From: Spirochaetales bacterium
Lineage (GTDB): Bacteria > Spirochaetota > Spirochaetia > Treponematales > UBA12059
Length of the DNA stretch: 42,529 bases
Assembly: GCA_016926955.1 (NCBI GenBank)
Contig: JAFGNN010000050.1
Span: 1-42,529, forward strand
Reading direction: 5' to 3'
This document shows positions 5,280 to 34,120 of the stretch, piece after piece. The translations under genes were made by a program, and so were the position numbers. The notes below the pieces were generated by a model, which was given only the letters and a program-made list of their open reading frames with translations, did no database searches and was not told the origin of the DNA. Each line of letters begins with the position of its first letter. Within the stretch, counting starts at the first letter, position 1.

Positions 5280-5309
5280 TTGCCGAGCCTCGCCGAGCGG
5301 GAGTATCAT
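5280..5309 (+). promoter_or_regulatory. Sigma-70-type promoter of the exporter operon, probably leaderless
   Basis: TTGCCG at 5280-5285 and TATCAT at 5304-5309 are separated by 18 bases. Only six bases lie between the -10 box and the ATG at 5316, so transcription should begin at or next to the start codon. No well-spaced Shine-Dalgarno sequence is present; a GGGAG lies too far upstream. Confidence 0.5.
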
Positions 5310-5315
5310 CGGCCC

Positions 5316-9243: not shown

Positions 9244-9247
<4 letters not shown>
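7100..9247 (+). CDS. Heterodimeric ABC exporter, catalytic subunit with large loop insertion
   Basis: A 715-residue half-transporter that complements the previous gene. Walker A is GYTGAGKTT (Lys499), Walker B ends in Asp620-Glu621 with the catalytic Glu present, and the switch His652 is present. The signature is ISTGQ near 596 instead of LSGGQ. The consensus ATP site would therefore combine this protein's Walker motifs with the partner's LSGGQ, and the other site would be degenerate. Between the first helix (about 27-55) and the second (about 175-200) is an extra ~115-residue charged, mostly helical segment, where relatives have a short external loop. That explains the length of 715 versus the usual 580-620. 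It overlaps the previous gene by ATGA and the next by GTGA, so the three are co-translated. Confidence 0.93.
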
Positions 9248-10692
<1,445 letters not shown>

Positions 10693-10879: not shown

Positions 10880-10922
10880 GATTGGTGTCGATTGGCATGA
10901 TTATTGCTTATTGATTGGCATG
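10880..10922 (+). repeat. GATTGG direct repeats in the giant-gene leader
   Basis: GATTGG occurs at 10880, 10890 and 10913. The last two extend to the identical decamer GATTGGCATG. The spacings are 10 and 23 bases, close to one and two helical turns. A fourth GATTGG at 10742 overlaps the upstream -35 box. The middle copy contains the -24 element of the sigma-54 promoter. Confidence 0.5.
10893..10908 (+). promoter_or_regulatory. Sigma-54 promoter of the giant lipoprotein gene
   Basis: TGGCATG, then four bases, then TTGCT matches the sigma-54 consensus TGGCACG-N4-TTGCW with one mismatch. The invariant GG (10894-10895) and GC (10906-10907) are exactly 10 bases apart. Transcription would begin near 10918, leaving a leader of about 43 bases before the ATG at 10962. 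A sigma-54 activator is encoded immediately upstream. Confidence 0.75.
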
Positions 10923-10961
10923 CATCGTTTTCCGAGCCGCCGTCCGTCCAGGGAGGATACC

Positions 10962-13900
10962 ATGGCCCACGCCACCACGAACCCCGTTTCCGACCGCTCG
11001 TCGCGCCGCGCTGCATGGCGCTTTGCCGCGCTCGCGCTCGTCGCGGTGTTCGCGCTCGGCACCTGCGACCTCTTTACCGTCGGCCTGGGAAGCAAGGTGG
11101 ACGTGACCGCGCCCGAGGTGAGGATCACGAGTCCGACCCAGGGCGCCTACCTGGGCGGCGCCGTCACATTCACCGGGTCCGTCGCCGATGACGTCGGCGT
11201 GTCTGGCGTGCGGTTGGTGGTTTCCGAACAGGCGACCGGGAACGTGATACGGACGGTGAACGCGTCCCTTTCGGAGGGCGGTTTCAGCGCCAGTATCGAT
11301 ACGGCCGATCTGGACGATACCCGTTTCCTTTTCACGGCGGTAGCCACCGACGCGCAGGGTCGTTCCTCCTCCTTCGACCTTGTGGCCGTGGTCGACAACC
11401 ACGCGCCGACAGTGCTCGTCAACTCGCCGACGACCTACGGCGCAGCAGGCAGTCCGAGGGTATCGAAGTACATCGACATCCGCGGCGAAGCCTACGACTC
11501 GGGAGCCCTGGCCTCGGTCGACGTCCTGCTCCTCGATTCGGGCGGAACGGTGCTCGCCGAGAAACGAGCGCTCAATCCCGCCTCGTGGAGCATCAGCTTC
11601 GATTTCGACGGCGCGGACGCGGACTTTCTCCCGAGCGGTGTGGAGGTTTTCTATTACGTGGCGGTCGCGAGGGACGCCGCAGGCAACGAGAGCCTGTACT
11701 ACTACCATCGAAACGACATATACGGATATCTGGACGACGTCACGCACTTCCCATCCGTTGCCGAGCTCGCGCGGATAAACGACGACGAGTCGGGAACCGT
11801 GAACGATCTCGATTTCAGCGAACTCTCGTCCGAGCGGCTCTATTCCGCAGGCACCCTCGCCGATTTTACCTACGACGACAGCGCGCGCCCGGAGGTCCGG
11901 TATACCAACCTCGACGTGAGCAAGGACGAAACGGGAAACGTGCTTTCCGTGTCCTCGCCGATCACGGGTCTGGTGACGCCTCCCCTCGGCATCGACATCG
12001 GCATCGATCCGGAAAGCCTGGAAGCGGAGTTCCGCGCGCTCTCGGATGATTCCCTCATCCTGGCCATCAATATAGCCCAGAACTGGGCGATGGCGGAAAT
12101 CGTGAATCTCGGGAACAGCATCAGCTTCAAGCTCGATCCGGTGCCCGCCCTGGAGTCTAGCGCCTACAAGATCGTGACCCGGGCGACGACCCTCGACTCG
12201 GTCTCGACCGGCGACGTCGTCGCGAGCTTCACCATCGATTCCGCCGCCCCGACCCTGGACGAGACGGAACTCGGTAACGTGGTGCTGTTCTCCAGCGGTG
12301 ACTTCGGTCTCGGCGGTTATGCCACTGCTTCCGCGGGGCTGGACCGCATCGAGGTGGATCTTGCCCCCGAAGGGACCCCGTTCGACGAGATACCCGAAAC
12401 GAGCATCGCCCTATCCGGAACCGAGTCGGCCTGGACCTGGAATTCCTCGGACGCGACGGGCTATCCCTTCGCGGACGGGTCGTGGCAGATACGGATCAAG
12501 GTTCTGACCATCACCGGCAAGGCCACGGAACTCTATCGCTCCGTAGTCATCGATACGACCGTGCCCGAGCTCGAGATCGTCTCCTTCGGTCCCCTCGTGG
12601 GCGGTACCTTCGCCAACGGCACGCTCGAATTCTCGGTGGCCGCCACGGACGCCAACGGGATCGGCGGCATCAAGTACTGGTTGCTTCCCTCGGGCTCGCC
12701 CGAACCCGCCTGGACCGATCCCGCGACCGGCACTTGGGTGTCGACGCCGTACGCCGGAGTGATCGACACCGGGCTCCTGGATGATCTCGACGCGTACAAG
12801 CTCTGGGTGAAAGCCCGCGACAAATCGCTCGACGACGGCGGTCTCCCCGTCAACGTCGCAGTCGCCTCGATCGCTTTTGTGGTCAAGCAGTCCTCGGATC
12901 TTCCTTCGCTCGCACTGACGCCGCCTCTCAAGGCGGACGTGGACACCGAGCCCGAGGTGAACTCGACAAACAACCTCTTCGGCGCGAATGCCCGTCTCTA
13001 CGGAACGCTCTCCGACGACGATTCGATCGACGCCTCGACGATCGCCATCAGCTTCGACACCACTGACGGTACGGATGGCACTTGGGATTCCGATCCGCTC
13101 CGGCTGAGCGTCGGCGCTGACGGCAAATCCGTGTCCTTCGATTACGACCTTTCCGGGCGACCCGAATCGGTCCAGTATTTCTGGGTGAAGGCTTGGGACC
13201 TCGCTTCGGAAAAATTGGGCGAAGCGGCCGTGGAAAGAGCCTTCGGACCGGTCTGGTTCGCCATCGACGCTGCGAACCCCGCGCTCGCCATCACCGCGCC
13301 CAATGCCACCGGCTCGGTCCACGGAGCCGATTTCCAGATCCAGGGCACCGCGTCCGACGCTAACGGACTACTCGGCGGATCCGTGACCATAAAGGACGCG
13401 ATGAATACCGCCGTGGCCAGCCCCGCGGTAGCCGCGGGCCTGTGGGACTGGACGATACCCGTAGGGACCGTGGGCGAGGGCGTCCACGACTGGACCGTCG
13501 TGGCCGTCGACCGCTTCGGCAAGACCAGCAGCGTCCCCTTCCGTTTCACCATCGACCTGTCGGATCCGGTCATTTCGATTTCCGCGCCTGTCGCGAGTGT
13601 CGACCTGAATCCTGCCACCTGGTCCTCGGGAACCGCCGTCACCGCTTCCGGATCCATCGACGAGTCGGTCGCTTCCATCGAATGGTCGACGGATGGCACC
13701 ACCTACACGCCGATGACGGTCTCGGACCCCTGGAGCGTCTCGCTCGCGATCGGGGCGCTGGGCGAAGGACCGGGCAAGACGCTCTACATCCGCGCCACAG
13801 ACCTGGCAGGAAACACCGGAACCGCCAGTCGGAGCTTCGGCATCGACCAGAGCGCGCCGTCCACGAGCGTGAGCGCGCCGGCGAGTGCGAGCGCCGCGTT

Positions 13901-16900
13901 CGCCATCACGGGCACGGCCACTGATACAAACGCCCTCGCCAACATCCGCGTCACGCAGATCATGGACGGCGACCCCGGCAGCGAGGTCGAGGCTTACGCT
14001 TCAGCCCTTTCGGGTACCGGCGCCGCGTGGACTACCGGCATCGTCCTGCCGATCGGCGGGGTCGCCTCCGGCACCTACGAATACACGATAACCATCACCG
14101 ATATCGCGGGCCGGACTTTCAGCGCCACGGAGACCGTGCTTATCGACCTTTCGGCTCCCGAAACCCTGACGGTAAGCGCGCCGTCGGCGGGCCGGACCGG
14201 AACCAACGCGGTGTCCGGATCGGCGCTGAGCGTCGGAGGCACCGCTCTCGATGCGGGGGTCGGCCTCGCGAAGCTCTGGTATCTTATCGACGGAAACGCG
14301 ACGGCACCTTCGGGCGTCGCAGGCTATACGGAACTCGCATGGACCGATTCCACCTGGACCTTCCAGGTGGACCTCGACATCGACGGAGCGGGCGCCGACC
14401 TGGGGCTCGCCGAAGGGAAGTGGTATCTCCACGTCAAGGCAGAGGACGCCGCCGGCAACCGCACCGCCGACGGCGACGCGGTCACGGTGGAATTCGACCA
14501 CGACCAGGCGAATCCCTCGCTCGCCGAATCGGCGATCGCTTCCACGGGCATCGTGAACCGCGCCGTCGGGTTCTCGCTCGGCGGTACCGCCGCCGACGGC
14601 TGGGGCATCGCCGCGGTATCGGTTACCCAGGACAGGGACGGCCTCGGCGCCGTGCCCGTGTCCGTGAACGGACCGAGCGGCACCACAACCTGGGCGCTCG
14701 CCGACCTGCCGCGCGATCCGCTCGACATCGGAACGCAACAGCCCCTCGACGGTTCCGGCGACGGCGTGTACACCTACGTCGTCACCGTGACGGACCTGGC
14801 GGGGAAGACCACCCAGCTCACCCGCATCGTGCGCTTCGACACGACCGGCCCGTCGCTGACGGTCACCACGCCGGCTGCGTCAGAATTCCTGGAAACCGCC
14901 ACCAAGACCTTCCAGGGCTCGGTAAATGACGGCGCCGGCTCCGGCGTCGCCTCGGTCGAGTATTCGATGGATTCGAGCGACGGCTCGGACGGCGCCTGGT
15001 TCGCCGCCAACGTTGCCGGAACGAACTGGAACGTGGCGGACGTCGCGCTGGGCGCGCAGGGCGCGAAATTCGCCTGGTTCCGCTCCACCGACGCGCTCGG
15101 CAACCGCACCCTCCTGCCGCGTGTCGACTTCTATTACGACTCCGCGCCTCCCGCCATCGATGAGACCGCGGTAGGTACCACCGACGAAGTGTTGACGAAT
15201 GCCGACGTGACCTTGTCGGGAAGCGCGAGCGACCTCAATGCGCTGACGAATGTCACCGTAAGCGCCACCAAGGGCGGCGTCGCGCAGGGCACCCTGCATA
15301 CGGACGCGGCCTCGCCCGATTCCTGGACGTATACGCACCCGGCCACCCTGGCCAACAACGGGCTTTGGGTATTCACCATCACCGCGACCGACGCCGCGGG
15401 CCGAAGCAGCTCGGTGCAGCGCACCGTCCGCATCGACACCATCGCGCCGGTTCCCTCGATAACGCTTCCCGGGGCGGGAGCCTTCGTCTCGGGGAGTTCC
15501 TACACGGCGAGCGGCGGCGCGAGCGACGCTAACATCGTCGCAGCCGTAGAATGGTCGATCGACGGCGCCACGTGGTATTCCGTCGGCTCGGGAACGACGA
15601 GCTGGTCGGCCAGCCTCGATCTCGCGACCATTGGCGAAGGATCCCGGACCCTCCAGGTCCGGGCAACAGACGAGGCGGGCAACCTGAGCGCGCCCGTATC
15701 CCGCCCCTTCGTTGTCGACCTCAATTCCCCCACGATCACCGAGACGTCCATCGGTTCGGGCGCCATCTACCGGAACGCGCAATTCGCACTGGGCGGCGAT
15801 CTTGCCGACAATGTGGATCTGGCGTCCATTTCGGTCACCCAGAACAAGAATTCCGGGGGCGCGGTCGCCGTCTACTCGGCGAGTTACGCGGGTGCCGTAG
15901 GCGGCACGCCGGAGACGGGTGCCTCCTGGAGCGTTCCCGCCCTGCCGTCCGGCTGGGTCGGCGACGCCACCGATTCGGGCGTCTACGAATTCATCATCAC
16001 AGTCACCGACGCCTCGGGAAAGACCTCGAGCCTCACGCGCACCGTGACGGTGGACAAGACCGATCCGGCGCTCGCGATCAACTCCGTCATCCCCATGCTG
16101 CCAGGCAACATCGTCAACGGGAAGGTGACGCTCAGCGCCAACGCCTCGGACGAGAACGGCCTCGACGGCGTGAAGTACTTCATCCGCGCTTCCGCGGCGA
16201 CGCCCGCCTATACGGACGTGGACGGGATCCTCGATGCCGCCGCGCCCTACGACACGGTCATCGACACGACCGCGCTCTCTGACGGTACCTACTACTTCCA
16301 CGTGCTGGCCCGCGACAAGGCGGGCAACGTCAGCGCCCTCGTGGCCACCGTGCTCGTCCAGCAGTCCTCCGACCTGCCCTCGGTCTCGGTCGACAGCCCC
16401 GCAGACGGCGACGCGATCGGCACCGACAAGAAGATACGCGGCACCTTCAGCGACGACGACGGCGTCGCCGCGAACTCGGCCCTCTTCTACTGGAAGAAGT
16501 CCACGGACGCATCGTTCTCCTCCAAGACCATCACGAACTCGAGCGCTGCGGGGCAGCTCGTCTCCTGGACGATCGACCTCACGACCGAACTCGGAGCATC
16601 GGGAGACGGCACTTACCAATACTACGTCCGCGTCACGGATGACGCCGACGCAAAGGCATTGCTTCCCGCCGTGTATACCGAGCTCGGTTCGGCCGCCGCG
16701 CCCAGGGTATTCACCTTCGACAACAGTCCGCCGACCGTTTCCGCGACGCTTTCCCTGAGTCCGATAAAGACGGCATACAGGCTCGATGACGTCGTCACCA
16801 TTTCCTGGACCGCGAGCGACGCTTCCGGCATCGCGAGCCAGGTTGTCGACGTAGACGGCTCGACGGCGGCCCTGAGCGCGCTCAGGAATCCTTCCGGATC

Positions 16901-19900
16901 CGATTTCGAAATCGATTACACCGTGCCCGCCACGACGAGCGGGAACAAGAGCTTTACGGTGGTGGTCACCGACGAGACCGGCCGCTCCACGACGCGGACC
17001 GCCACGATCCTCGTCGACACCGAGCTGCCCGAGGTCGAGGACGCCCTGAGCCTCGACCCGGCCTTTGTCGGCTCGACCCCCAACGGCGCCTTCACGCTCC
17101 GCGGCACCGCCTCCGACAACCGCGCCCTCGCGAATGTGCAGGTCAGCCTCTCCGGACCGAGCGGTTCGCTCGCCTGGACTGATGCCACCTTGGTCAACGG
17201 CAACTGGAGCTTCGCCATCGCCGACAGCGCCGTCTACGTCGCCGCGTCCGGTGATCTTTCCGTCGAAGTCCGCGCCTACGACCAGGCGGGCAACCTCGGC
17301 GACACCCGCACCTTCGTCCGCGCGGTCGACCAGGCCGCCGACAAGCCGGTCGTTAGCCTCCTCTCTCCGGTGGGCGGATCCTCGTACGGCACCACCGTAC
17401 AGATCTCCGGCACCGCGAGCGACGACGACAACCTGTACGACTTGAACGACGACGGCGTCGTGGACGCGTCCGCCGTCGAGGTCGACTATTGGGATACCGC
17501 GACCGCGACCCACACCATCGTGAATCCCGTGGTGTCGGGCTCGGGAAAGTCGGCCACCTTCAATCTGGCCCTGAACGGCCTCGCGGGAGGCGACTGGAAC
17601 GTCTCCATCCGTGCCCGCGACGACGCGGGAACCTGGTCGGACTGGTCGGCGACGACGACCTTCACCGTGAACTCGGGCGCTCCGAACCTGATCGTATCGA
17701 CCGCCGTGCCCGCCTACACCAACAACGCCTCGCTCGCCCTCTCGGGCACGGTCGAGGATTCCGACGGCGTGCGCTATGTGAAGGTGCGCGTCAACGGCGG
17801 CGCCTGGCAGCTCGCGGGCGGCGCGGGTCTTGTAGACACAAGCCCGGTGGACGGCGAGTGGGACACGCCGCCGACCGCGCAGGTCGCCTGGAGCATCACG
17901 CTCAACCTCGGCTCCGATGGCCTCAAGACCCTGGAATTCGAGGCGAGCGACGGCGGCTTCATCGCCACGCAGCAGAAGAGCACGACGCTCGACGACACGG
18001 CCCCGGACGGCGCCTTCGACGCACAGTTCCGCGACGACCCCACCGGCAGCCTCCTCAATACCAGCCTCCTCAACAAGCTCGTGCGCATTACCGGCACGGT
18101 GACGGAGCTCAACCTCGCCGACTCGAACCCGATCGAGATTTCCATCGACGGCGCGGCGTACGTGCCGGTCACGGGCACCTTCGTGTGGAGCCACGTCTGG
18201 GACACTACCTCGGTTCCCGACGATGACTACACGCTCGCGCTCCGCATCACCGACAAGGCGGGAAATGTCACTACCTCCATCTCGAAGGTGGTGACCACAA
18301 GCCAGGCGGCCGACGTGCCCGTCATCGCACAGGCGTTCAACGCGGCCCCCAGCTCGGGAGACGCGGGGCTCAACATCCTGGGAACGACCCTCAAGGTGTC
18401 CGGCACGCTCTCGGATGACGACGGCTTCGACACCGGGGCGGTGCTCATATCGCTCGACGGCGGCGCGTACTCGATCTCCGCCGTCAACACGGCCGGTACT
18501 GTCGGCACCTGGGAGTACACCTGGGCAAGCCTTGCGCAGAGCGAGCACTTCTACAGCGTGCGCGCCATCGACCGGAACGGCGCGAGCTTCACCATGGGTC
18601 CGACTTACTTCATAGTGGATACGGCGAATCCGACCCTGACCCTCGACGCGCCCCTGGCCGGCGCGAAAATCAAGGCGGGGACCCTGACCATCTCCGGCAC
18701 CGCCAGCGACTCGGGCGGGCTGGGAGCGTCCCCGCTTTCGATGACGCTCCGCCACTCGAACGCGGCCAGTCCGCTCCACAACGCCACTTACGCTCCCGCA
18801 GTGGCCGGCTCGGCTTGGAGCCAGCCCATCGCCATCGACGGCTCCACGCTCGACGGGACCCTCTACATCGATCTCGTGCTGACCGACCGGGCCGGCAAGC
18901 AGTCGAGCGTCACCCGCGCGCTTACCATCGACACCACCTCGCCTTCCCTGAACCTCAACTACCCGAGCGTCGATGCCTACATCAACGGCCTCATCAGCGT
19001 CACGGGCACCGCGGACGACCTGAGCGGCCTCGCGGACGTGACCCTGCAGGTGCTCGACCCTGCTTCCGGCCTGCCGGTGGCCAACGTCACGCGCTCGGGC
19101 ACGACCTTGGCCGCGTGGGAGTTCCCCTTCAACAGCTTCACCTACGCGAACGCCACCTACGGCGTCGACGTCAACGCCGACGGCAAGCTCTGGCGCGTCA
19201 GGTTCCGCCTCGCGGCGACCGACAATTCCGGCAACGTCGCCGAGCTCCTTGTCGACGACGAGGACGCGGACACCGACCTCGACGACTGGCCCAGCTTCTA
19301 CGTCGATACCGACGGGGACAAGCCTACCATCGCGGTCACCCAACCCAAGACCGGCGATACCATCGGCGGCTTCGTCAGCATGTTCGGCACGGCCACCGAC
19401 GACGACGGCCCGGTCATGCAGGTTGAGGTCCAGATCGACTTCAACGGCGACGGCGATTATCTGGACGCCCGCGACCTCGACAACGACGGCACCGTGCAGA
19501 CCGGAACCGATACTTCCATCTTCTCGAACACCGTGAAAATCGGCGACCCCGCGCACCCGTGGGAGGACGAGTCGGCCTGGTACGTCGTCAGCGTCACCAA
19601 CAACTCATGGACCCGGGAACTCAACTCCGACGGAGAACTCTATGCGGCGAACACGGGCAGCCTCACCGACGGCCTCGTCAACATCAGGGTGCGGAGCCGC
19701 GACCAGTTCGGCCTCGCGAGCGAGATCCTGACCCGGACCATCACCCTCGACCAGACCTTCCCGCGCATCGAGAACATCGCGCCGCTCGACCAGACCTACC
19801 AGAACGGAGTCTTCAACCTGACCGCGGAGTTCGGGGACAACGTCGACCTGGATCTCGGAAGCGTCAGCCAGGTCCGGATCAACATCAACAAGACGGGCTA

Positions 19901-22900
19901 CCAGACGCTGACCGTCGGCCCCTACGTCGCGGTCACGCATCCGTACTCCCTGGTCGCCGACCTGGCCGACCCGCAGAACGGCTACGACCTCGTCTACGAG
20001 ATCGACACCGAGGACTACTTCCCCGACAGCTCGGGCATCCTCTACGCCGATCTCTACGTCAAGGACGAGTCGGGTTACACCAACCAGCGTTCCTTCACCT
20101 ACTACGTCGACAACCAGGATCCGAGCTCGGCCTGGTCGGACAGCGTCACGCGTCCCGACGGCTCGAACCTCAGGAACGGCATGATCACGGTGAACGGCGT
20201 CGACAAGACCTACGTCGAAGGCAACTACGGCGACTCGGGCGCGGTCAGCGGCATCTCGCACATAGAGGTGTACGTGGTCAAGGACGGCGAGATCCGCAAC
20301 CTCAAGGCGGACGGCGTCTGGACCGGCGCCACGACGAGCGAGGATACGACCGTCGAGAACTACACCCTGGCGACCAACAGCTGGTCCGCGCCGGCGACGG
20401 AAGCGGAGCTGTTCGTCGCCCACGACGATCTCGGCGACGACTACGTCATCCGCGTCGACCGGCCAACCGAGATGAGCGACCTCGCGCTCGGCACCGACCT
20501 CGACGGCGACGGCTACCACGAGTTCCAGGGCATCTACGACGGAAAGGCCCGCTGGCGCGCGTACTTCGACAGCGCAGACATCCCCGACGGCCTCGCGGAC
20601 CTCCACTACGTGGTCTATGACCTCGCGGGCAACCGCGTGCACCGCATGCGCCAGGTCTTCTTCGCCAACAACGGGCCGCAGATCGACCGCATCGCCGTGG
20701 GTTCAGACCTTAACGGAAGCGGCACGGTAGCGAATGCGGACGGTCTCGAGGAGATCAAGGACTACTACAATCCTTCAACGTCGACCTTCCGGTCAGACTC
20801 GCAGAAGATCAAGAACCTCAGGCTGTACCTCGGCATCGAGGGCGGGGACCCGAACCCGCTCGCGAGCCCCGGACAGGTCAAGCAGATCTTCGTGGACGTT
20901 TACAACGCGGCAGGCACGACCTTGCTCGGCAACGCGTTCACGAGCACGCTCAACCCGGCCTCGGGCGACGCCTCGACCACGCTGGTACCGACCCCCGGCA
21001 CCGCGCCGTGGACCTCGGGCTATACGGACGGCATCGCCGCGTACACGCTCAAGATCACGGTGCGCGACTCCGACGACATCAACGTGTCGCAATACGTGAA
21101 GGTCAGCGTCATCGACCCGGTCGACGCCACGCCTCCCGTGGTGACCCTGAGCGCGCTCTCGGTAGACGACCAGGATCTCGACTTGGGCCACCTCGAGCTC
21201 CAGGGCGACAATACGCTGGACGTCTGGAACGCCATCAAGGCGGCCTACGGCGGCGACAACGACCCGAAGGTTTCCGGAGCCATCCGGATCAAGGGCGTCA
21301 TCACCGACGACAACCTGGTCTCGGGCATCCAGGCCACGAGCCAAAACAACCCGAACCCCGCGCTCGCCGCGTGGGTCGACGGGGCTCTCGTGCCCGACAC
21401 CGCTCGCTTCGTCATCGACTCGCAGACCTTGGGCGAAACCGGCCACACCGTGAACTTCACCTACACCTGGGAGAGCTCCGAGGTCACGGGCGTCGCGGGT
21501 CTCGACAAGACCCTGGCCATCAAAGCCTTCGACGGCGTGATCACGGGCGCAGGCACGCGGGCGGACACGACGACCATAGCCATTCCCTCGCTGGGCGGGA
21601 AGACCGTCGCCGTCGGCGCCCCCATCCGGGTGTTCGGCGGAGCGGTCCCCGCGACCACCACCGTCGCTGCGTTCCTCCCGCTCTCGGGTACCGTCACCCT
21701 CGCGGGCGCGGTCCCGACCGACAACACGAGCGCCTCGGTCTCGCTGGGCAATACCGACGAAGATGCGCTCCGTGTCGACGTCGTGCCGTACGTCATCTCG
21801 ATGGATAGGGACGCGACAAGCTACAATACTTACCGATCGCGGCTTGGCTACACCGTGCTGAGGCGTGGCGAGGCCGTCACCTTCACCGGATTCAACCTTT
21901 TCAACTCGACGTCTGACCTTGCGACCTTCGTCGGACAGGCGCCAACGCTGCCGGCGGGCTCCACGGCCACGAGCTTCACCCTGCCTGGTGCCTCGACTGC
22001 CTCCATCGCATCGGGGCCGGTGAGCGTCACCGTCTCGGGACAGATATCCATCAACAACCTGAACGACAACACGAAGGAGTGGAACAGCGAGGCGACGACC
22101 TCGGCCGCCCTCGACGGCTCGACGCTCTGGAACGACGACATCGCCGTCCACGTGTGGCAGTCAGACGACAACCAGACCGGCGGGAATCGCGGCTACTTCA
22201 CGGGTTCCGCAGATCCGGAGTACCCGGCGATGAGCATCGACGGAGCCGGCCTTCTGTACGGCAGCTGGAGCAATTACGCCAGTTCGAGCATCCTGTACGG
22301 CACGAACTCGGCCGGAGCGGCGACGGTGTTCACGGGTTACGACCCGTCCGAGCATACCGACATCCACTTCGGCTCGAGGGCGACCGTCGCGATCAACGCG
22401 AACCTGTACGGCAACGGAGCCTGGAACGTCACGGGTGCGGGCGGCTCGTACGTCTGGGACAACCAGGCGACCGACGACAACGATTACACCGGAACCCCGA
22501 TCATCGGCGTGTACAACGCGGAGGCGCTCTACCACGACCAGAAGCTCATGCAGTTCGTCAACCAGAGGGTCGTGACGAACGGTGACGACATCCACCTGAG
22601 CTACTACGACACGGATACCAAATCCTTGAAGTATTGGTATCACCAGAGCGGCGTCAACGAGCCGTACGCGCAAGCCTGGATCAACATCGATGGCGGCCTG
22701 GACGCCCACGACGGCGCTGCCACCAACGTCACCTATGGCACCGCGAGCGAGACGGATGTACAGACCCGTGCGCCGACGAACGGCGTCTCGGTCGCGAGCG
22801 TCGCGGTTTCCCTCGGCCAGAAGGTCGCGCAGGACGAGTTGCTGGCCACCCTGTCGAACGGAACGCAGATCACCGCGACGGCGAACGGCTACGTCTCCTA

Positions 22901-23858
22901 CATCATCACCGTCGGTTCCGCCGTCTCGCGATGGTTCGATACGACCATCGCGAGCCTGGCTTCGCACAGCGTCGTCGCCGTACTGGCCGACGCCGGTGAC
23001 ACCGTCGTGACCACGCCGACGCCCACCCCCATCCTGAGCATTTCAGATTATGCGGGCGCGACAACCGTGATTTCGGCCAATGCCGCCGGCTTCCTCGGCG
23101 ACCGGGCTGCCATAGGAACTCCGGTCACCAACGCGACGGTGCTCGCCAGCATCTTGACGACGACGACACGGATCGCTTCCGTCGGTCGCAGCTCCGCCGC
23201 CGGCGAGTACTCCGCCGTCGACGTCGTTCCGGGAACGGGCTTCCCGCTGATCGCCTACTACGACATCGCCAACCAGACGGTCAAGCTGGCGCGCGCGTCT
23301 GCCGTCAATCCGGCGGGGACGCAGTGGTACCTGCAGGCCGTGATGGACTCGGGAACGGATGCCAATTACCGATACTCCGGCAAGTACATCTCCATGAAGG
23401 TCGACGTGAACGGCTACGTCCACCTGGCCTTCTTCCGGAACTCGACGGGCGACCTCGTCTACATGCGCTCCACGAACACTTCCTACGACGTGGGTCCCTC
23501 GGTTCCCTACACGTTCGGCCCCTCGGTCGTCATCGACAGCATCGGCTCCGTGGGCACCTGGGCGGACCTGAGCCTGGACGGGACGAACCCCGTCATCTCG
23601 TACCTGGACTCCTCGCTCGTGAACACCTTCGACGGCATCAAGCTGGCGTACTACGACAGCGCGCTCGAGACGGAGACGGGGGACGCGGACGGCGTGCCCG
23701 ACTCGATCGACGGCTGGGAGACCATGAACGCTGCGCTGGGCTACGAGGTAGAGAGCGTGCGGACGAGCGTCGAGACCGACACCGGCGCCAACTTCTGGAA
23801 CCAGGCCATCGGCTACAGCTCGACGGACTACTATCGAATCGGGTATTACGTGAAATGA
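10962..23858 (+). CDS. Giant tandem Ig-like repeat lipoprotein (4298 aa) with propeller-like C-terminus
   Basis: I start at the ATG behind GGGAGG (10951), which gives a basic N-terminus, a hydrophobic stretch ending FALGTC and a possible spirochaetal lipobox with Cys as first mature residue; a TTG at 10911 is less likely. About 28-30 Ig-like modules follow (to about residue 3600), each opening with a linker such as IDTTAP or VDNHAP and holding a S-G-T-A-S-D core. Five modules carry a Q-[SA]-[SA]-D-x-P linker and a DDD core; four of them are 323, 324 and 335 residues apart, giving a three-domain super-repeat. Several loops look like calcium sites (for example DLNDDGVVD, DFNGDGDYLD, DLDGDG). 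After residue 3600 the sequence changes: blade-like repeats such as HLSYYD, LIAYYD, HLAFFR and VISYLD suggest a beta-propeller, interrupted by a lipoyl-like segment. It is probably an outer-surface adhesin or matrix protein; its ligand is unknown. Confidence 0.88.
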   Translation: MAHATTNPVSDRSSRRAAWRFAALALVAVFALGTCDLFTVGLGSKVDVTAPEVRITSPTQGAYLGGAVTFTGSVADDVGVSGVRLVVSEQATGNVIRTVNASLSEGGFSASIDTADLDDTRFLFTAVATDAQGRSSSFDLVAVVDNHAPTVLVNSPTTYGAAGSPRVSKYIDIRGEAYDSGALASVDVLLLDSGGTVLAEKRALNPASWSISFDFDGADADFLPSGVEVFYYVAVARDAAGNESLYYYHRNDIYGYLDDVTHFPSVAELARINDDESGTVNDLDFSELSSERLYSAGTLADFTYDDSARPEVRYTNLDVSKDETGNVLSVSSPITGLVTPPLGIDIGIDPESLEAEFRALSDDSLILAINIAQNWAMAEIVNLGNSISFKLDPVPALESSAYKIVTRATTLDSVSTGDVVASFTIDSAAPTLDETELGNVVLFSSGDFGLGGYATASAGLDRIEVDLAPEGTPFDEIPETSIALSGTESAWTWNSSDATGYPFADGSWQIRIKVLTITGKATELYRSVVIDTTVPELEIVSFGPLVGGTFANGTLEFSVAATDANGIGGIKYWLLPSGSPEPAWTDPATGTWVSTPYAGVIDTGLLDDLDAYKLWVKARDKSLDDGGLPVNVAVASIAFVVKQSSDLPSLALTPPLKADVDTEPEVNSTNNLFGANARLYGTLSDDDSIDASTIAISFDTTDGTDGTWDSDPLRLSVGADGKSVSFDYDLSGRPESVQYFWVKAWDLASEKLGEAAVERAFGPVWFAIDAANPALAITAPNATGSVHGADFQIQGTASDANGLLGGSVTIKDAMNTAVASPAVAAGLWDWTIPVGTVGEGVHDWTVVAVDRFGKTSSVPFRFTIDLSDPVISISAPVASVDLNPATWSSGTAVTASGSIDESVASIEWSTDGTTYTPMTVSDPWSVSLAIGALGEGPGKTLYIRATDLAGNTGTASRSFGIDQSAPSTSVSAPASASAAFAITGTATDTNALANIRVTQIMDGDPGSEVEAYASALSGTGAAWTTGIVLPIGGVASGTYEYTITITDIAGRTFSATETVLIDLSAPETLTVSAPSAGRTGTNAVSGSALSVGGTALDAGVGLAKLWYLIDGNATAPSGVAGYTELAWTDSTWTFQVDLDIDGAGADLGLAEGKWYLHVKAEDAAGNRTADGDAVTVEFDHDQANPSLAESAIASTGIVNRAVGFSLGGTAADGWGIAAVSVTQDRDGLGAVPVSVNGPSGTTTWALADLPRDPLDIGTQQPLDGSGDGVYTYVVTVTDLAGKTTQLTRIVRFDTTGPSLTVTTPAASEFLETATKTFQGSVNDGAGSGVASVEYSMDSSDGSDGAWFAANVAGTNWNVADVALGAQGAKFAWFRSTDALGNRTLLPRVDFYYDSAPPAIDETAVGTTDEVLTNADVTLSGSASDLNALTNVTVSATKGGVAQGTLHTDAASPDSWTYTHPATLANNGLWVFTITATDAAGRSSSVQRTVRIDTIAPVPSITLPGAGAFVSGSSYTASGGASDANIVAAVEWSIDGATWYSVGSGTTSWSASLDLATIGEGSRTLQVRATDEAGNLSAPVSRPFVVDLNSPTITETSIGSGAIYRNAQFALGGDLADNVDLASISVTQNKNSGGAVAVYSASYAGAVGGTPETGASWSVPALPSGWVGDATDSGVYEFIITVTDASGKTSSLTRTVTVDKTDPALAINSVIPMLPGNIVNGKVTLSANASDENGLDGVKYFIRASAATPAYTDVDGILDAAAPYDTVIDTTALSDGTYYFHVLARDKAGNVSALVATVLVQQSSDLPSVSVDSPADGDAIGTDKKIRGTFSDDDGVAANSALFYWKKSTDASFSSKTITNSSAAGQLVSWTIDLTTELGASGDGTYQYYVRVTDDADAKALLPAVYTELGSAAAPRVFTFDNSPPTVSATLSLSPIKTAYRLDDVVTISWTASDASGIASQVVDVDGSTAALSALRNPSGSDFEIDYTVPATTSGNKSFTVVVTDETGRSTTRTATILVDTELPEVEDALSLDPAFVGSTPNGAFTLRGTASDNRALANVQVSLSGPSGSLAWTDATLVNGNWSFAIADSAVYVAASGDLSVEVRAYDQAGNLGDTRTFVRAVDQAADKPVVSLLSPVGGSSYGTTVQISGTASDDDNLYDLNDDGVVDASAVEVDYWDTATATHTIVNPVVSGSGKSATFNLALNGLAGGDWNVSIRARDDAGTWSDWSATTTFTVNSGAPNLIVSTAVPAYTNNASLALSGTVEDSDGVRYVKVRVNGGAWQLAGGAGLVDTSPVDGEWDTPPTAQVAWSITLNLGSDGLKTLEFEASDGGFIATQQKSTTLDDTAPDGAFDAQFRDDPTGSLLNTSLLNKLVRITGTVTELNLADSNPIEISIDGAAYVPVTGTFVWSHVWDTTSVPDDDYTLALRITDKAGNVTTSISKVVTTSQAADVPVIAQAFNAAPSSGDAGLNILGTTLKVSGTLSDDDGFDTGAVLISLDGGAYSISAVNTAGTVGTWEYTWASLAQSEHFYSVRAIDRNGASFTMGPTYFIVDTANPTLTLDAPLAGAKIKAGTLTISGTASDSGGLGASPLSMTLRHSNAASPLHNATYAPAVAGSAWSQPIAIDGSTLDGTLYIDLVLTDRAGKQSSVTRALTIDTTSPSLNLNYPSVDAYINGLISVTGTADDLSGLADVTLQVLDPASGLPVANVTRSGTTLAAWEFPFNSFTYANATYGVDVNADGKLWRVRFRLAATDNSGNVAELLVDDEDADTDLDDWPSFYVDTDGDKPTIAVTQPKTGDTIGGFVSMFGTATDDDGPVMQVEVQIDFNGDGDYLDARDLDNDGTVQTGTDTSIFSNTVKIGDPAHPWEDESAWYVVSVTNNSWTRELNSDGELYAANTGSLTDGLVNIRVRSRDQFGLASEILTRTITLDQTFPRIENIAPLDQTYQNGVFNLTAEFGDNVDLDLGSVSQVRININKTGYQTLTVGPYVAVTHPYSLVADLADPQNGYDLVYEIDTEDYFPDSSGILYADLYVKDESGYTNQRSFTYYVDNQDPSSAWSDSVTRPDGSNLRNGMITVNGVDKTYVEGNYGDSGAVSGISHIEVYVVKDGEIRNLKADGVWTGATTSEDTTVENYTLATNSWSAPATEAELFVAHDDLGDDYVIRVDRPTEMSDLALGTDLDGDGYHEFQGIYDGKARWRAYFDSADIPDGLADLHYVVYDLAGNRVHRMRQVFFANNGPQIDRIAVGSDLNGSGTVANADGLEEIKDYYNPSTSTFRSDSQKIKNLRLYLGIEGGDPNPLASPGQVKQIFVDVYNAAGTTLLGNAFTSTLNPASGDASTTLVPTPGTAPWTSGYTDGIAAYTLKITVRDSDDINVSQYVKVSVIDPVDATPPVVTLSALSVDDQDLDLGHLELQGDNTLDVWNAIKAAYGGDNDPKVSGAIRIKGVITDDNLVSGIQATSQNNPNPALAAWVDGALVPDTARFVIDSQTLGETGHTVNFTYTWESSEVTGVAGLDKTLAIKAFDGVITGAGTRADTTTIAIPSLGGKTVAVGAPIRVFGGAVPATTTVAAFLPLSGTVTLAGAVPTDNTSASVSLGNTDEDALRVDVVPYVISMDRDATSYNTYRSRLGYTVLRRGEAVTFTGFNLFNSTSDLATFVGQAPTLPAGSTATSFTLPGASTASIASGPVSVTVSGQISINNLNDNTKEWNSEATTSAALDGSTLWNDDIAVHVWQSDDNQTGGNRGYFTGSADPEYPAMSIDGAGLLYGSWSNYASSSILYGTNSAGAATVFTGYDPSEHTDIHFGSRATVAINANLYGNGAWNVTGAGGSYVWDNQATDDNDYTGTPIIGVYNAEALYHDQKLMQFVNQRVVTNGDDIHLSYYDTDTKSLKYWYHQSGVNEPYAQAWINIDGGLDAHDGAATNVTYGTASETDVQTRAPTNGVSVASVAVSLGQKVAQDELLATLSNGTQITATANGYVSYIITVGSAVSRWFDTTIASLASHSVVAVLADAGDTVVTTPTPTPILSISDYAGATTVISANAAGFLGDRAAIGTPVTNATVLASILTTTTRIASVGRSSAAGEYSAVDVVPGTGFPLIAYYDIANQTVKLARASAVNPAGTQWYLQAVMDSGTDANYRYSGKYISMKVDVNGYVHLAFFRNSTGDLVYMRSTNTSYDVGPSVPYTFGPSVVIDSIGSVGTWADLSLDGTNPVISYLDSSLVNTFDGIKLAYYDSALETETGDADGVPDSIDGWETMNAALGYEVESVRTSVETDTGANFWNQAIGYSSTDYYRIGYYVK
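16362..19307 (+). repeat. Three-domain Ig super-repeat within the giant gene
   Basis: Linkers of the type Q-[SA]-[SA]-D-x-P or D-G-D-K-P start at 16362, 17331, 18303 and 19308. This defines three consecutive units of 969, 972 and 1005 bases. Each unit holds three Ig-like modules: first a DDD-core module, then two ordinary ones. An earlier copy of the linker lies at 12888, preceded by the same kind of module as the copy at 16362. Confidence 0.65.
22758..23180 (+). other. Lipoyl/biotinyl-type (barrel-sandwich hybrid) segment in the giant lipoprotein
   Basis: About residues 3933-4073 contain three successive stretches of roughly 30-40 residues with the same pattern, A-x-x-x-G-x-(6-8)-V/I-G-x-x-V-x(5)-L/I-A-S/T-L/I. 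They start near RAPTNGV, TATANGY and ISANAAG. This is the hydrophobic/glycine pattern of lipoyl-attachment and HlyD-type hybrid folds. The modified Lys in a D-K-M/A turn is not present, so the segment would be structural. It splits the propeller-like repeats in two. Confidence 0.45.
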
Positions 23859-23921: not shown

Positions 23922-24881
23922 ATGCGACGCACGCCGATAAAAGTCAGGTACCTGGTCAGCATCATGTGCGCGGGCGCGGCGCTCGTCTCTTGCGCAGGGG
24001 GGCCCTACTCGGGGTCGGTTCCTCTCGAAAAGGCGCTCTCCGATGGATCTCTCGACGCGGATACGCTCGGATTCCTGGAAGCTGCTGCCTCGATAGCTGA
24101 TTTCCTGGCCGCTCGTTTCGGCCTGGAGAAGGGCGTCGAAGCGATCCGCTTCATCTCCCAACCGCGACAGGGCATGGCTTGGAGACTTGTCGCTGTGGAG
24201 GACGGCGTGCCCGCGAATGCCCGGACCACCTGGCACACGAGCCTCGCGGAAGCGGAATCCGCTGCGGCGAAGCTGGGCGAAAGGGCAACGTACATGATCG
24301 AAGAAGTCGCCCACATTTCCGGAACGGGGAGGGGACCGGGACCCCTCGTCAGCGCCCACATGAATCTGTCCAGGACAGCCCTTGTCGAGGAAGTGGTCTT
24401 CCGCGTGCTGTACGAGGCGCTCGACCGCAAGCGATCGGTGGAGGAGTCCGAACGGGAAGCGCTGGCGCTTTTCCTGGCTGAGAAGGCGACCCAGCTCTAT
24501 CTCGTCGAGAAGCTGTCACCCGCTTCCCCGGTGCTCGGCAATTACATCGCGCAAAAGCGGGACGAAAGGACCTTCCAGACCCTGCTCGGGGGATTGCGCG
24601 AGCGTTTCGCGAACGTGCTTTCGCAGGATCTTCCGGCCGCCGAGACGGAAAGGTCGCTGTCCTTCCAGACGGACGTTTGGCTCGAGGACTTCCGGTTCAA
24701 CTACAGCCGGCGTTTTCTCGGTGACGGATTCCAGGCTTTCGGATCGGACGGCGTGAGCGCCGCGCTGCTCGCGGCCAATGACGATCCGATACCGTCCTAC
24801 GCGGAATTGGAGGCGGAGTACAGGCGGCTGGGCGAAGATCCGGTGGCCTTTTTCGGAAGCCTGTCGAGCGGAGGGAACTAG
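23922..24881 (+). CDS. Predicted lipoprotein of unknown function
   Basis: A 319-residue protein. The N-terminus has basic residues, a hydrophobic stretch and a good lipobox (LVSC, Cys at about residue 24), so the mature protein should be membrane-anchored in the cell envelope. The remainder is soluble and largely alpha-helical with many charged residues, and no transmembrane segment follows. GAGAGG lies about seven bases before the ATG. The gene stands alone between a terminator and a convergent minus-strand gene. The middle part (about 145-235) is a run of amphipathic helices; I see no zinc-binding HExxH or other catalytic motif and do not recognise a family. Nothing in the sequence shows a function beyond the lipid anchor. 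Confidence 0.85.
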   Translation: MRRTPIKVRYLVSIMCAGAALVSCAGGPYSGSVPLEKALSDGSLDADTLGFLEAAASIADFLAARFGLEKGVEAIRFISQPRQGMAWRLVAVEDGVPANARTTWHTSLAEAESAAAKLGERATYMIEEVAHISGTGRGPGPLVSAHMNLSRTALVEEVVFRVLYEALDRKRSVEESEREALALFLAEKATQLYLVEKLSPASPVLGNYIAQKRDERTFQTLLGGLRERFANVLSQDLPAAETERSLSFQTDVWLEDFRFNYSRRFLGDGFQAFGSDGVSAALLAANDDPIPSYAELEAEYRRLGEDPVAFFGSLSSGGN

Positions 24882-28593: not shown

Positions 28594-30300
28594 ATGCCTG
28601 AGCCTTCGGCCTTCGACGACCTCGTGAGGGAGCTCTCCCACGACGAGCGACGGGACCTCCTGCACCGCATTCGCGGTGCGGCCAAGGTTTCCGAGGAAGT
28701 CCTTTTCCGCGACGAAGAGGCGGGCCAGCCGGCCATCGATTATGCCGCCCGGTACCGCGAGCTCGGACTCATCGGCCGCATACTTGTCGCCCTCCGTTCC
28801 TTCTTCTCCGGCCTGCCGCGGGACGAGGTGCTGAAGGCCCGCATCCTCGAGGATGTCGCCCGTCGCGTGGAGCTGCGCTCGCCGGGCCTCGCGGACGCTC
28901 GGCGCGGGGTCCTGCTCGAGCGCTTCGCCGTGGAACTCGCCTCCCTCCGCGACGGCTCGCGCTGGTTCGTGGACTACCTGGACCGGGCCCTCGAGAAGGA
29001 CAAGGGCTCCTTCTACGCGTTCGTCGGCTCGGTGTTGCTCGAGGGCGTCCATCGCAAGCTTTGGGACGAGGCGGATCCCTTCGCCATAGCGAACAGGGAC
29101 TCCTCCCTCGACGAGGCGGCGGTCAAGGCGACGGTCTGGTCGATCTACGAGGACGCGGTCGCCTCCATCGGCGAATCGGATCGCCGCCAGGTCTACGCCG
29201 ACCTGCGGAGCCTTCTCTTCCTCCGTCGCCTCGCAACCTTCCTTTTCGATCGAGCGCTCGCCGCCTTCGAGACGGACGCGGCCGGCCGGCGCTCGGCGGT
29301 CTTCCCGGTATTGAAGGACCAGCTTGCCGAGCTCGCCTCGATCCTGGCGTCTATGGCCCAGCCCCCTTCCCTCAAGCTCATGGAGAGCCTTTTGGTCTTC
29401 GCCACCCGCGAAGGCTTGTCCCGCGGCGATTTCGACGTGGAGGGAGAGGTCGCCGGGTTGCTTGAAAAAGCCGACATGGCGCTGTCGCGCGTGCGCGCCT
29501 TCAACCAGCGGGTCCCTCTCGTGCTCCTGGTCCAGCTGGCTTCGGAAGATCCGAACTGGCGTCCGCGCGAGGCCCCCGGGGCCGAGGACTGGTTCGCGCT
29601 CTACCGCCAGTTCTGGCGCGAGCGCCTCGAGCGCCGGATGCTCATCTTCTCGAACCGGCGGAAGGCCGAGGCCCTGTTCCGCGAAGTCGAGCATTTCGCG
29701 GGCCAGGCTCCGGCCTTCGACCACATCAACGTGAAGGACACCGAGCACGCTCCGGGCATCCGCATTGCTCCCCTCATCGCCTTCCTCGCCGCGTTCTACC
29801 GCAACGTCTTCGTGCCCCTGCTGAACAAGCCGCTCCGCATCGTCCTTCTCGACGGCGAGTTCTACAAAAAGGACAACCGGGTCGAATACACCGAGGCCTA
29901 CAACGTCCTCCTCCGCATCGACGAGGTCGCGCGAACCCTGGACCGACGGCTTTCGCCAGGAGGGGAGCTCTCGGAATCCTGGATACAGGCCAGGACGGAC
30001 ATGGGGCATCCGGCGGTCAGGCACCGGCGCATCCAGGGCGCCGCCGCGCTGGCGGCCAAGGAGGCGGAGGATTTCGTCGACTCCGCGGTCTCGGCGTTGA
30101 GGTCGATGGCCGAGGTGCTGCGGGGCATAATGACAAACGAGGTCGGCGGCAAGTATGATTCGCTCGCCAATCTCCACTACCTCGAAGGACGGGCCAACAA
30201 GGAATTTCTCGAGTCGGTCGAGGGCGCGAGAAGCCGTATCGAGCGAGCGCTCTCCATCCTCGACGAGCTGTCGAACCTGGAACTCGGGGGCGGGGCGTGA
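28594..30300 (+). CDS. Large helical protein of unknown function (probable spirochaete-restricted family)
   Basis: A 568-residue protein that is soluble, mostly alpha-helical and rich in Arg, Glu and Ala. It has no signal peptide. One more hydrophobic stretch (about 387-405, LIAFLAAFYRNVFVPLL) could be a buried helix or weak membrane contact. It contains a conserved-looking patch, FDHINVKDTEHAPGIR, and the C-terminal part is heptad-like with coiled-coil potential. It resembles spirochaetal proteins of the DUF5312 type in length and style, but that is recollection, not a search. The next gene overlaps by GTGA, and that one overlaps the OmpA gene by ATGA, so the three form an operon and may work together at the cell envelope. 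No catalytic motif is visible. Confidence 0.82.
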   Translation: MPEPSAFDDLVRELSHDERRDLLHRIRGAAKVSEEVLFRDEEAGQPAIDYAARYRELGLIGRILVALRSFFSGLPRDEVLKARILEDVARRVELRSPGLADARRGVLLERFAVELASLRDGSRWFVDYLDRALEKDKGSFYAFVGSVLLEGVHRKLWDEADPFAIANRDSSLDEAAVKATVWSIYEDAVASIGESDRRQVYADLRSLLFLRRLATFLFDRALAAFETDAAGRRSAVFPVLKDQLAELASILASMAQPPSLKLMESLLVFATREGLSRGDFDVEGEVAGLLEKADMALSRVRAFNQRVPLVLLVQLASEDPNWRPREAPGAEDWFALYRQFWRERLERRMLIFSNRRKAEALFREVEHFAGQAPAFDHINVKDTEHAPGIRIAPLIAFLAAFYRNVFVPLLNKPLRIVLLDGEFYKKDNRVEYTEAYNVLLRIDEVARTLDRRLSPGGELSESWIQARTDMGHPAVRHRRIQGAAALAAKEAEDFVDSAVSALRSMAEVLRGIMTNEVGGKYDSLANLHYLEGRANKEFLESVEGARSRIERALSILDELSNLELGGGA

Positions 30301-32517: not shown

Positions 32518-33636
32518 TCAGGCAAGGGCGGGTCCGCCGAGATCGGCCCATTCGAGTCCTTCGCCGTCGGGAACCTCGCGGATCGCGACGCGACCGAGGA
32601 CAGCCGGCAGCAGGAAGGGGTCGAGTCCCGGCCGCAGCACCTTTTCCGTGCGGAGCACGGCCAGGTTGCCTTCGGTGAACGCTTCGCCCGCGCGGATGCG
32701 GCGCAGCGCGTGGATCGATCGCCTGGTGCGCTCGTAGTTGGCCCGCTCGCTCGGCGCGAGGCGCTTGCGGCCGTCGCCTATCGTGGCCGAGATCCGTTCC
32801 GCTCCGTAGCGCGCGGCCAGCTCGCGTTCCGTGGCCTCCGCTCCTTCCGCCGTGGCGATCCTGACGGTGCGCGCCATGTGCTCGAAATCCTCGGGCGGCA
32901 GCGCGATAGGGTCGTCGAGGCCGGGATCGCTCCGCGAAAGGCAGATATGTTTCTCGATGACGGCAGCGCCCCGCGCCGTGGCGAGCGCGGGTACGAGGAC
33001 CGGGTCCATGGAGTGGTCCGACACGCCGATCGGGACGCCCAGGAGGGCGGACAGCGGGGAGAGCAGGGCGAGGTTGTAGTCCTCGCACGGGGCCGGATAT
33101 GCGGTGACGCAGTGGAGCAGTGCGAGCGGGCAGCCATCGAGGACAGCCATGGCCCGTTCGAGGTCGCCGAGCGTGGTCACGCCTCCGGAGACGAGGGTAG
33201 GAAGGCCGTACGAGGCGAGTTCCGCGAGCAGGGGCGCGTGGTTGGATTCCGGGCTCGCCACCTTCATGGCCTGAACGCCGAGCCCGCGGAGCTCCCGCGC
33301 GCTCCGGAGGCCGAAAGGCGTGCAGAGGAACGCGAGTCCTGCCGCCTCCGCCGCCTCCTTGCAGACGCCGAGGAAATCCGGACCGGTCTCGAGGGCGCGG
33401 AAGCGCTCGTACAGGGGAATCCGGCCGCCGGGCAGGGGCACGTCGCCGGTCAGGGGGTGGATGATCTCGTCGGCGTAGACGTGCTGGAACTTCACGACGT
33501 CGGCCCCCGAGCGCGCCGCGGCCTCGATGAGGGCGCGGGCCTTTCCCGCGTCTCCGGCGTGGGAGGTACCGACCTCGGCGATGATGACGACGCGACCACT
33601 GCCGACGCCGGGGAAATCGAAAGCGGTTACAGCCAT
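32518..33636 (-). CDS. NeuB-family nonulosonic (sialic-type) acid synthase with SAF domain
   Basis: A 372-residue protein. The TIM-barrel part has IIAEVGTSHAGDAGKA near residue 18 (family form A-E-x-G-x-N-H-x-G), ADVVKFQ, IGVSDHSMDP and AAVIEKHICLSR, all landmarks of NeuB/PseI/LegI enzymes that condense phosphoenolpyruvate with a hexosamine. The C-terminal ~65 residues (RRSIHALRRIRAGEAF...) form the SAF/antifreeze-like lid. The Asn of the N-H motif is Ser here. The product could be neuraminic, pseudaminic or legionaminic acid; spirochaetes may use such sugars for flagellar or surface glycans. No cytidylyltransferase or epimerase is nearby. GAGGTGG precedes the chosen ATG. The longer frame to 34110 runs into the divergent gene and is not real. 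Confidence 0.9.
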   Translation of the reverse strand: MAVTAFDFPGVGSGRVVIIAEVGTSHAGDAGKARALIEAAARSGADVVKFQHVYADEIIHPLTGDVPLPGGRIPLYERFRALETGPDFLGVCKEAAEAAGLAFLCTPFGLRSARELRGLGVQAMKVASPESNHAPLLAELASYGLPTLVSGGVTTLGDLERAMAVLDGCPLALLHCVTAYPAPCEDYNLALLSPLSALLGVPIGVSDHSMDPVLVPALATARGAAVIEKHICLSRSDPGLDDPIALPPEDFEHMARTVRIATAEGAEATERELAARYGAERISATIGDGRKRLAPSERANYERTRRSIHALRRIRAGEAFTEGNLAVLRTEKVLRPGLDPFLLPAVLGRVAIREVPDGEGLEWADLGGPALA

Positions 33637-33684
33637 CTGCGCCACCTCGCGTTTTTCAGGGAGCGCTCGACAAGCGCCCCGGGC

Positions 33685-33690
33685 TATAAT
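33685..33690 (+). promoter_or_regulatory. -10 box of the zinc-ribbon mini-gene
   Basis: A consensus TATAAT, with no clear -35. Transcription would begin at about 33697, either next to a first ATG at 33700 (leaderless) or 30 bases before the better ATG at 33730. Confidence 0.55.
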
Positions 33691-33719
33691 AGAATACGCA
33701 TGTCCATAAGGAAACCCAA
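33691..33719 (-). promoter_or_regulatory. Promoter of the NeuB-family gene, abutting the opposite -10
   Basis: On the minus strand TTGGGT (33719-33714) and TATTCT (33696-33691) are 17 bases apart. The two divergent -10 boxes lie side by side in a 12-base A+T stretch, so the two promoters should exclude each other. The leader to the ATG at 33636 is about 48 bases. Confidence 0.5.
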
Positions 33720-33729
33720 GGAGTCCTTC

Positions 33730-33972
33730 ATGAAGCAGCTGTTTTGCGATGTCTGCCGACGCGAGGTGGCCGACCCGGTACCGGGCCGCTCGTTCTTCTT
33801 TCAGGCCCAGTACGACCTTTGCGAGGATTGCCGCGACGACCTCGAGAAGGCCATGAAGTATACTGTCCGCACCAAGAGGCCCTTCGACTCCGGATGGTAC
33901 GATTCCCTCGTCCTGGACACCATCAAGGCCGGAATCGCCCGAAAGAAGATCGAGGCCAAGGCGTCCCGCTAG
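33730..33972 (+). CDS. Small zinc-ribbon-like protein
   Basis: An 80-residue protein with two Cys pairs, C-D-V-C at about residues 6-9 and C-E-D-C at about 31-34, separated by about 20 residues, which suggests one structural zinc site. The remainder is basic with a helical C-terminus. AAGGAG stands six bases before the ATG at 33730, which I prefer over the ATG at 33700, ten codons earlier. No catalytic residues are visible; a nucleic-acid- or protein-binding accessory role is plausible but unproven. It is divergent from the NeuB-family gene and upstream of yebC, which has its own promoter. Confidence 0.8.
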   Translation: MKQLFCDVCRREVADPVPGRSFFFQAQYDLCEDCRDDLEKAMKYTVRTKRPFDSGWYDSLVLDTIKAGIARKKIEAKASR

Positions 33973-33984
33973 GCTTGCAGGCTC

Positions 33985-34012
33985 GTGCCCGGCGTCGCTT
34001 CGCGTCGGGCAC
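33985..34012 (+). terminator. Possible terminator hairpin after the zinc-ribbon gene
   Basis: GTGCCCG at 33985-33991 pairs with CGGGCAC at 34006-34012, and three more inner pairs can form. Only GTT follows instead of a T-run, so intrinsic termination is uncertain. Confidence 0.35.
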
Positions 34013-34090
34013 GTTCCGCGCCACCGATCCGGACTTGAGTCCTTCCGGATCGCTTCCGTCGGACGCGCCGTCGTGGCTTTTCCGTGTCCG

Positions 34091-34120
34091 TTGACACTTT
34101 TCGCGGGCACGTGCTAGGCT
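34091..34120 (+). promoter_or_regulatory. Promoter of yebC
   Basis: TTGACA (34091-34096), an 18-base spacer and TAGGCT (34115-34120). The leader to the ATG is about 120 bases, long enough for regulation, but I see no known riboswitch in it. Confidence 0.6.

Follow-up and report, generated by a model that had tools for sequence, protein, structure and literature searches.

The C-terminal propeller of a giant lipoprotein-like protein encoded in a Spirochaetota genome is very probably interrupted, in the loop joining two of its blades, by two tandem domains of the barrel-sandwich hybrid (BSH; biotinyl/lipoyl-type) class that do not function as carriers, as judged from sequence comparison. The lipoyl fold is familiar from metabolic carriers and efflux adaptors. 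Here, the predicted cell surface bears a fold of this class, at a loop that has gained and lost it or seen it multiply, and it may have an extracellular role unrelated to carriers or efflux.

The domains fall within positions 22758-23180 of the window (the whole stretch of DNA analysed, 42,529 nucleotides). The open reading frame that hosts them is listed with a TTG start, a little 3' of which in-frame ATG codons are found, and its N-terminus comprises a hydrophobic stretch with the sequence LALGTC, which suggests lipid anchoring and export. This is followed by numerous Ig-like repeats (Big_7/Big_13) and then by the propeller. The layout is given in the table.

Features of the giant open reading frame and its propeller insert (positions in the window)
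Feature	Position	Strand	Basis and remarks
Giant surface lipoprotein-like ORF	10911..23858	+	4315 aa, TTG start
First propeller part, about 3 blades, terminating in WINIDGGLDAHDG	22056..22698	+	Homologue alignment and blade-like motifs; limits approximate
Entire insert, between anchors DAHDG and RSSAAGEYSAVD	22719..23186	+	Homologue comparison, missing in L003; limits approximate
First lipoyl-like (BSH) unit, made of half-motifs 1 and 2	22788..22964	+	PF00364 8e-05; unit profile 8e-20; left-out profile 1.4e-06
Second lipoyl-like (BSH) unit, made of the degenerate half-motif 3 and half-motif 4	22968..23162	+	Unit profile 4.1e-11; kept in L006
Second propeller part, about 4 blades, BNR_4-like	23187..23855	+	Pfam BNR_4 in homologues; GH145-type propellers in PDB

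A previous, sequence-only reading of this DNA had described three consecutive lipoyl-like half-motifs in this region, and all three are indeed present in frame (APTNGVSVASVAVSLGQKVAQDELLATL, ATANGYVSYIITVGSAVSRWFDTTIASL and ANAAGFLGDRAAIGTPVTNATVLASI). Across the 4315-residue protein a loose form of the half-motif occurs just three times, always within the insert, and none of 5000 composition-preserving shuffles contained three or more copies, showing that the repetition is not due to chance. The count of three was, however, one short, as a fourth, degenerate half-motif, VVAVLADAGDTVVTTPTPTPILSISDYAG, is located between the second and third (∼ 22968-23054). Four half-motifs make two complete tandem units rather than one and a half, and each unit displays the paired, pseudo-twofold half-motifs of the Biotin_lipoyl/BSH fold. 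BLAST returned no match between the two units and MAFFT misaligned them as a pair; they could be aligned only via their homologues.

When the insert was searched alone, the Pfam Biotin_lipoyl family (PF00364) was matched at 8e-05, with 22.8 bits against a curated cut-off of 22.1, the match starting slightly 5' of unit 1 at ∼ 22764; in the longer contexts of the whole tail or the whole ORF the score was 17.8 and 14.7 bits, below the cut-off. No HlyD family was matched above cut-off. In support of the earlier suggestion of a lipoyl-type fold, a BSH-group family was the best Pfam match in seven of nine homologous inserts scanned, namely Biotin_lipoyl in four (5.3e-05, 1.1e-04, 0.013 and 0.015) and Biotin_lipoyl_2 (1.6e-04), RnfC_N (3.7e-04) and NQRA_N (0.002) in the others; in the remaining two of the nine, L021 and L018, the best match lay outside the group or there was none.

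A profile was built from 14 units of ten proteins, which were cut by eye and, in the L020 row, had one internal loop taken out, which is a source of bias. Its strongest matches in the PDB were all lipoyl or biotinyl domains, with the lipoyl domains of PDH E2 at 1.4e-17, the biotin domains (BCCP) of pyruvate carboxylase at ∼ 3e-08, and AcrA and MacA weaker. The window's own units, both of which are included in the profile, scored 72.9 bits (unit 1) and 44.9 bits (unit 2). Across the window's own genome these two units came top and were followed, at far lower scores, by a 137-residue protein resembling a biotin carrier and by one other ORF. When profiles were instead built without a given clade, unit 1 of the window was still recovered at 1.4e-06 (Z = 100,000), the units of L006, L033, L009, L044 and L020 were recovered clearly, and those of L037/L038 and L039 weakly. 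The same left-out profiles missed unit 2 of the window and L021, and the L006 orthologue of unit 2 scored 0.061. Used as a single query against the PDB, the insert sequence gave no match. AlphaFold2 models from shallow alignments, of the tail with three sequences and of the insert alone, had mean pLDDT values of 33.1 and 30.6 and were unusable, so the fold assignment rests on the profiles.

The sequence on both sides of the insert is blade-like by its pattern of YYD repeats, in agreement with the sequence-only reading. Pfam cover of the propeller head is weak. BNR_4 is matched after the insert in six of ten homologues, weakly and below cut-off (best 4.5e-04), and scores 16.5 bits against a cut-off of 27.3 on the window protein itself, while the propeller matches GH145-type proteins in the PDB at 0.001. 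Proteins of the GH145 type are seven-bladed propellers (PMC8377490). On these weak but repeated profile similarities, the host propeller is related to the BNR_4/GH145 seven-bladed propellers, such as BT3686, BACINT_00347 and BACCELL_00856, but unlike them it terminates a giant Ig-repeat lipoprotein and may bear BSH inserts. In the low-confidence tail model, the sole moderately confident region (tail residues ∼ 437-570) was predicted to contain repeated four-strand groups after the insert.

That the insert lies between propeller blades is shown by homologues lacking it, such as L003, which is 63-74% identical around the site. Here, the flanking propeller sequence is intact and the two anchors are separated by 37 residues, as against 184 in the window. 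From the sequence we infer that it separates WINIDGG, the outer strand of one blade, from YSAVDV, which begins the following blade as its inner strand. Base composition along the insert showed no abrupt change at its limits. It could be argued that the stretch is instead an Ig domain or a set of divergent propeller blades in which lipoyl-like motifs have arisen by chance, given that the rest of the protein is Ig and propeller and that the AlphaFold2 models, with a mean pLDDT of ∼ 30 from shallow alignments, leave room for such folds. This is highly improbable, since the top Pfam and PDB profile matches are to lipoyl and biotinyl families and the insert-free homologue retains its flanking propeller.

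At the turn where a carrier domain has its modified lysine, unit 1 has SNGT and unit 2 has SDYAGATT. The lysine is absent from every aligned unit, those of the homologues included, which extends the earlier remark that no modified lysine was seen. The missing lysine, together with the suggested lipid anchoring and export, makes carrier or transfer chemistry very unlikely. Carrier domains are the best PDB profile matches, which might be taken to indicate functional lipoyl or biotin carriers; set against the lack of lysine at the turn of every unit and a predicted non-cytoplasmic location away from the ligases, the chance of this is close to nil. The units resemble the Biotin_lipoyl family in having two half-motifs each, in the spacing of G-x-x-V and A-x-x-x-G and in the significant profile match, but differ in lacking the modified lysine, in their tandem arrangement and in belonging to the loop of a surface propeller and not to a cytoplasmic enzyme. 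The lipoyl domains of the HlyD/AcrA/MacA adaptors and the BSH domains of RnfC/NqrA likewise have no modified lysine and are linked to the inserts by weak profile matches of the homologues. In contrast to the HlyD/AcrA-type adaptors, however, the units here have no helical hairpin, their halves being just a few residues apart, and the ORF has neither the adaptor β-barrel nor a transporter partner domain.

Homologues carry 0, 1, 2 or probably 3 units at exactly the same loop. There are two in L006, two clear ones and a probable third in each of L033 and L009, and a single one in L037, L038, L039, L044, L020 and L021. In the loci examined the BSH units are confined to this propeller loop. The propeller family was found in 98 of 393 sampled genomes of the phylum, and all the BSH inserts seen came from ten genomes, of four families, within the window's order; in the remaining families of the class and phylum, the members inspected, a subset of many matches, had no BSH inserts, and no relatives were found among viral contigs. 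One further match (L036 of genome G326, 7.9e-4) was taken as chance when the unit profile did not confirm it.

Propeller trees built with the insert left out need five or six changes of state, at least three of which are forced by well-supported branches, and the window and L003 are adjacent in the second tree (94/87). Either a single gain followed by losses or more than one gain would account for this, long branches limiting the resolution. With its number of units varying at one spot, the lipoyl-fold insert looks like an exchangeable surface module, whose variation might underlie some of the variety among the giant surface proteins of spirochaetes. Elsewhere in the family, the inserts that L026, L059 and L062 have in this loop or close to it are long, unrelated or unrecognised, and without a Pfam match, and the five inserts classed as non-BSH at or near the site, L018 included, gave no Pfam match at all. 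In genome G057 the propeller gene (L028 and other pieces) is broken by in-frame stops, which may reflect decay of the gene or a misassembly.

A working model is that the protein would be lipid-anchored at its N-terminus, with the Ig repeats forming a stalk and the propeller a ligand-binding head, probably for glycans. The two lysine-less tandem BSH domains, sitting in the loop that joins two blades, would then be a rigid, exchangeable module that alters either the binding of the head or the packing of neighbouring heads. We tentatively favour this non-carrier role for the BSH module, in decorating the ligand face or in assembly. Held with the same reserve is the broader proposal that lysine-less lipoyl-fold domains have been repeatedly recruited to a single interblade loop in spirochaetes, where 0 to 3 copies may tune binding.

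The lysine-less lipoyl domains of periplasmic adaptors serve in assembly, which they are thought to stabilise, or in contacts, and both hexamerisation and the stability of the complex have been tied to them (PMC4446572). This precedent, along with the tandem arrangement and varying number of the units, would fit a chief function in side-by-side self-association of the propeller heads, similar to the packing of lipoyl domains in adaptor rings, rather than in ligand recognition; close homologues manage without any units, and this alternative is considered unlikely. It is equally unlikely that the insert is simply an antigenically or ecologically variable loop in which any compact β module is tolerated and has no specific function. 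Recurrent gain and loss, and the presence in other homologues of inserts here or close by that are unrelated or unrecognised, are what such a loop would show, but the same fold class is found in the same loop across ten genomes and four families, and its core pattern is kept despite low identity. For the preferred role in binding or head packing, the window and L003 provide a natural pair with and without the lysine-less BSH domains. A literature search for BSH domains in connection with propellers, surface proteins or adhesins returned nothing relevant within its open-access scope, so an earlier description is possible.

Several neighbouring genes in the window were also annotated. A second Ig-repeat protein (2-5185, + strand; Big_7 and Big_13; at least 1727 aa) is truncated by the contig start, and nothing matching the propeller tail was found in it. 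The giant ORF is preceded by two successive genes for ABC exporter half-transporters (5280-9247, + strand; ABC_membrane and ABC_tran) and, immediately before it, by an ORF of the Sigma-54-dependent activator type (8041-10692, + strand; Sigma54_activat and HTH_8), the listed start of which overlaps the preceding transporter ORF in a different frame. A putative aminopeptidase (23922-24881, + strand; Pfam Aminopep) follows closely downstream. Further along are a DUF5312 protein (28594-30300, + strand; strong match, 3e-125) and a NeuB-type sialic-acid synthase with a SAF domain (32518-34110, - strand), which may be relevant to surface glycans.
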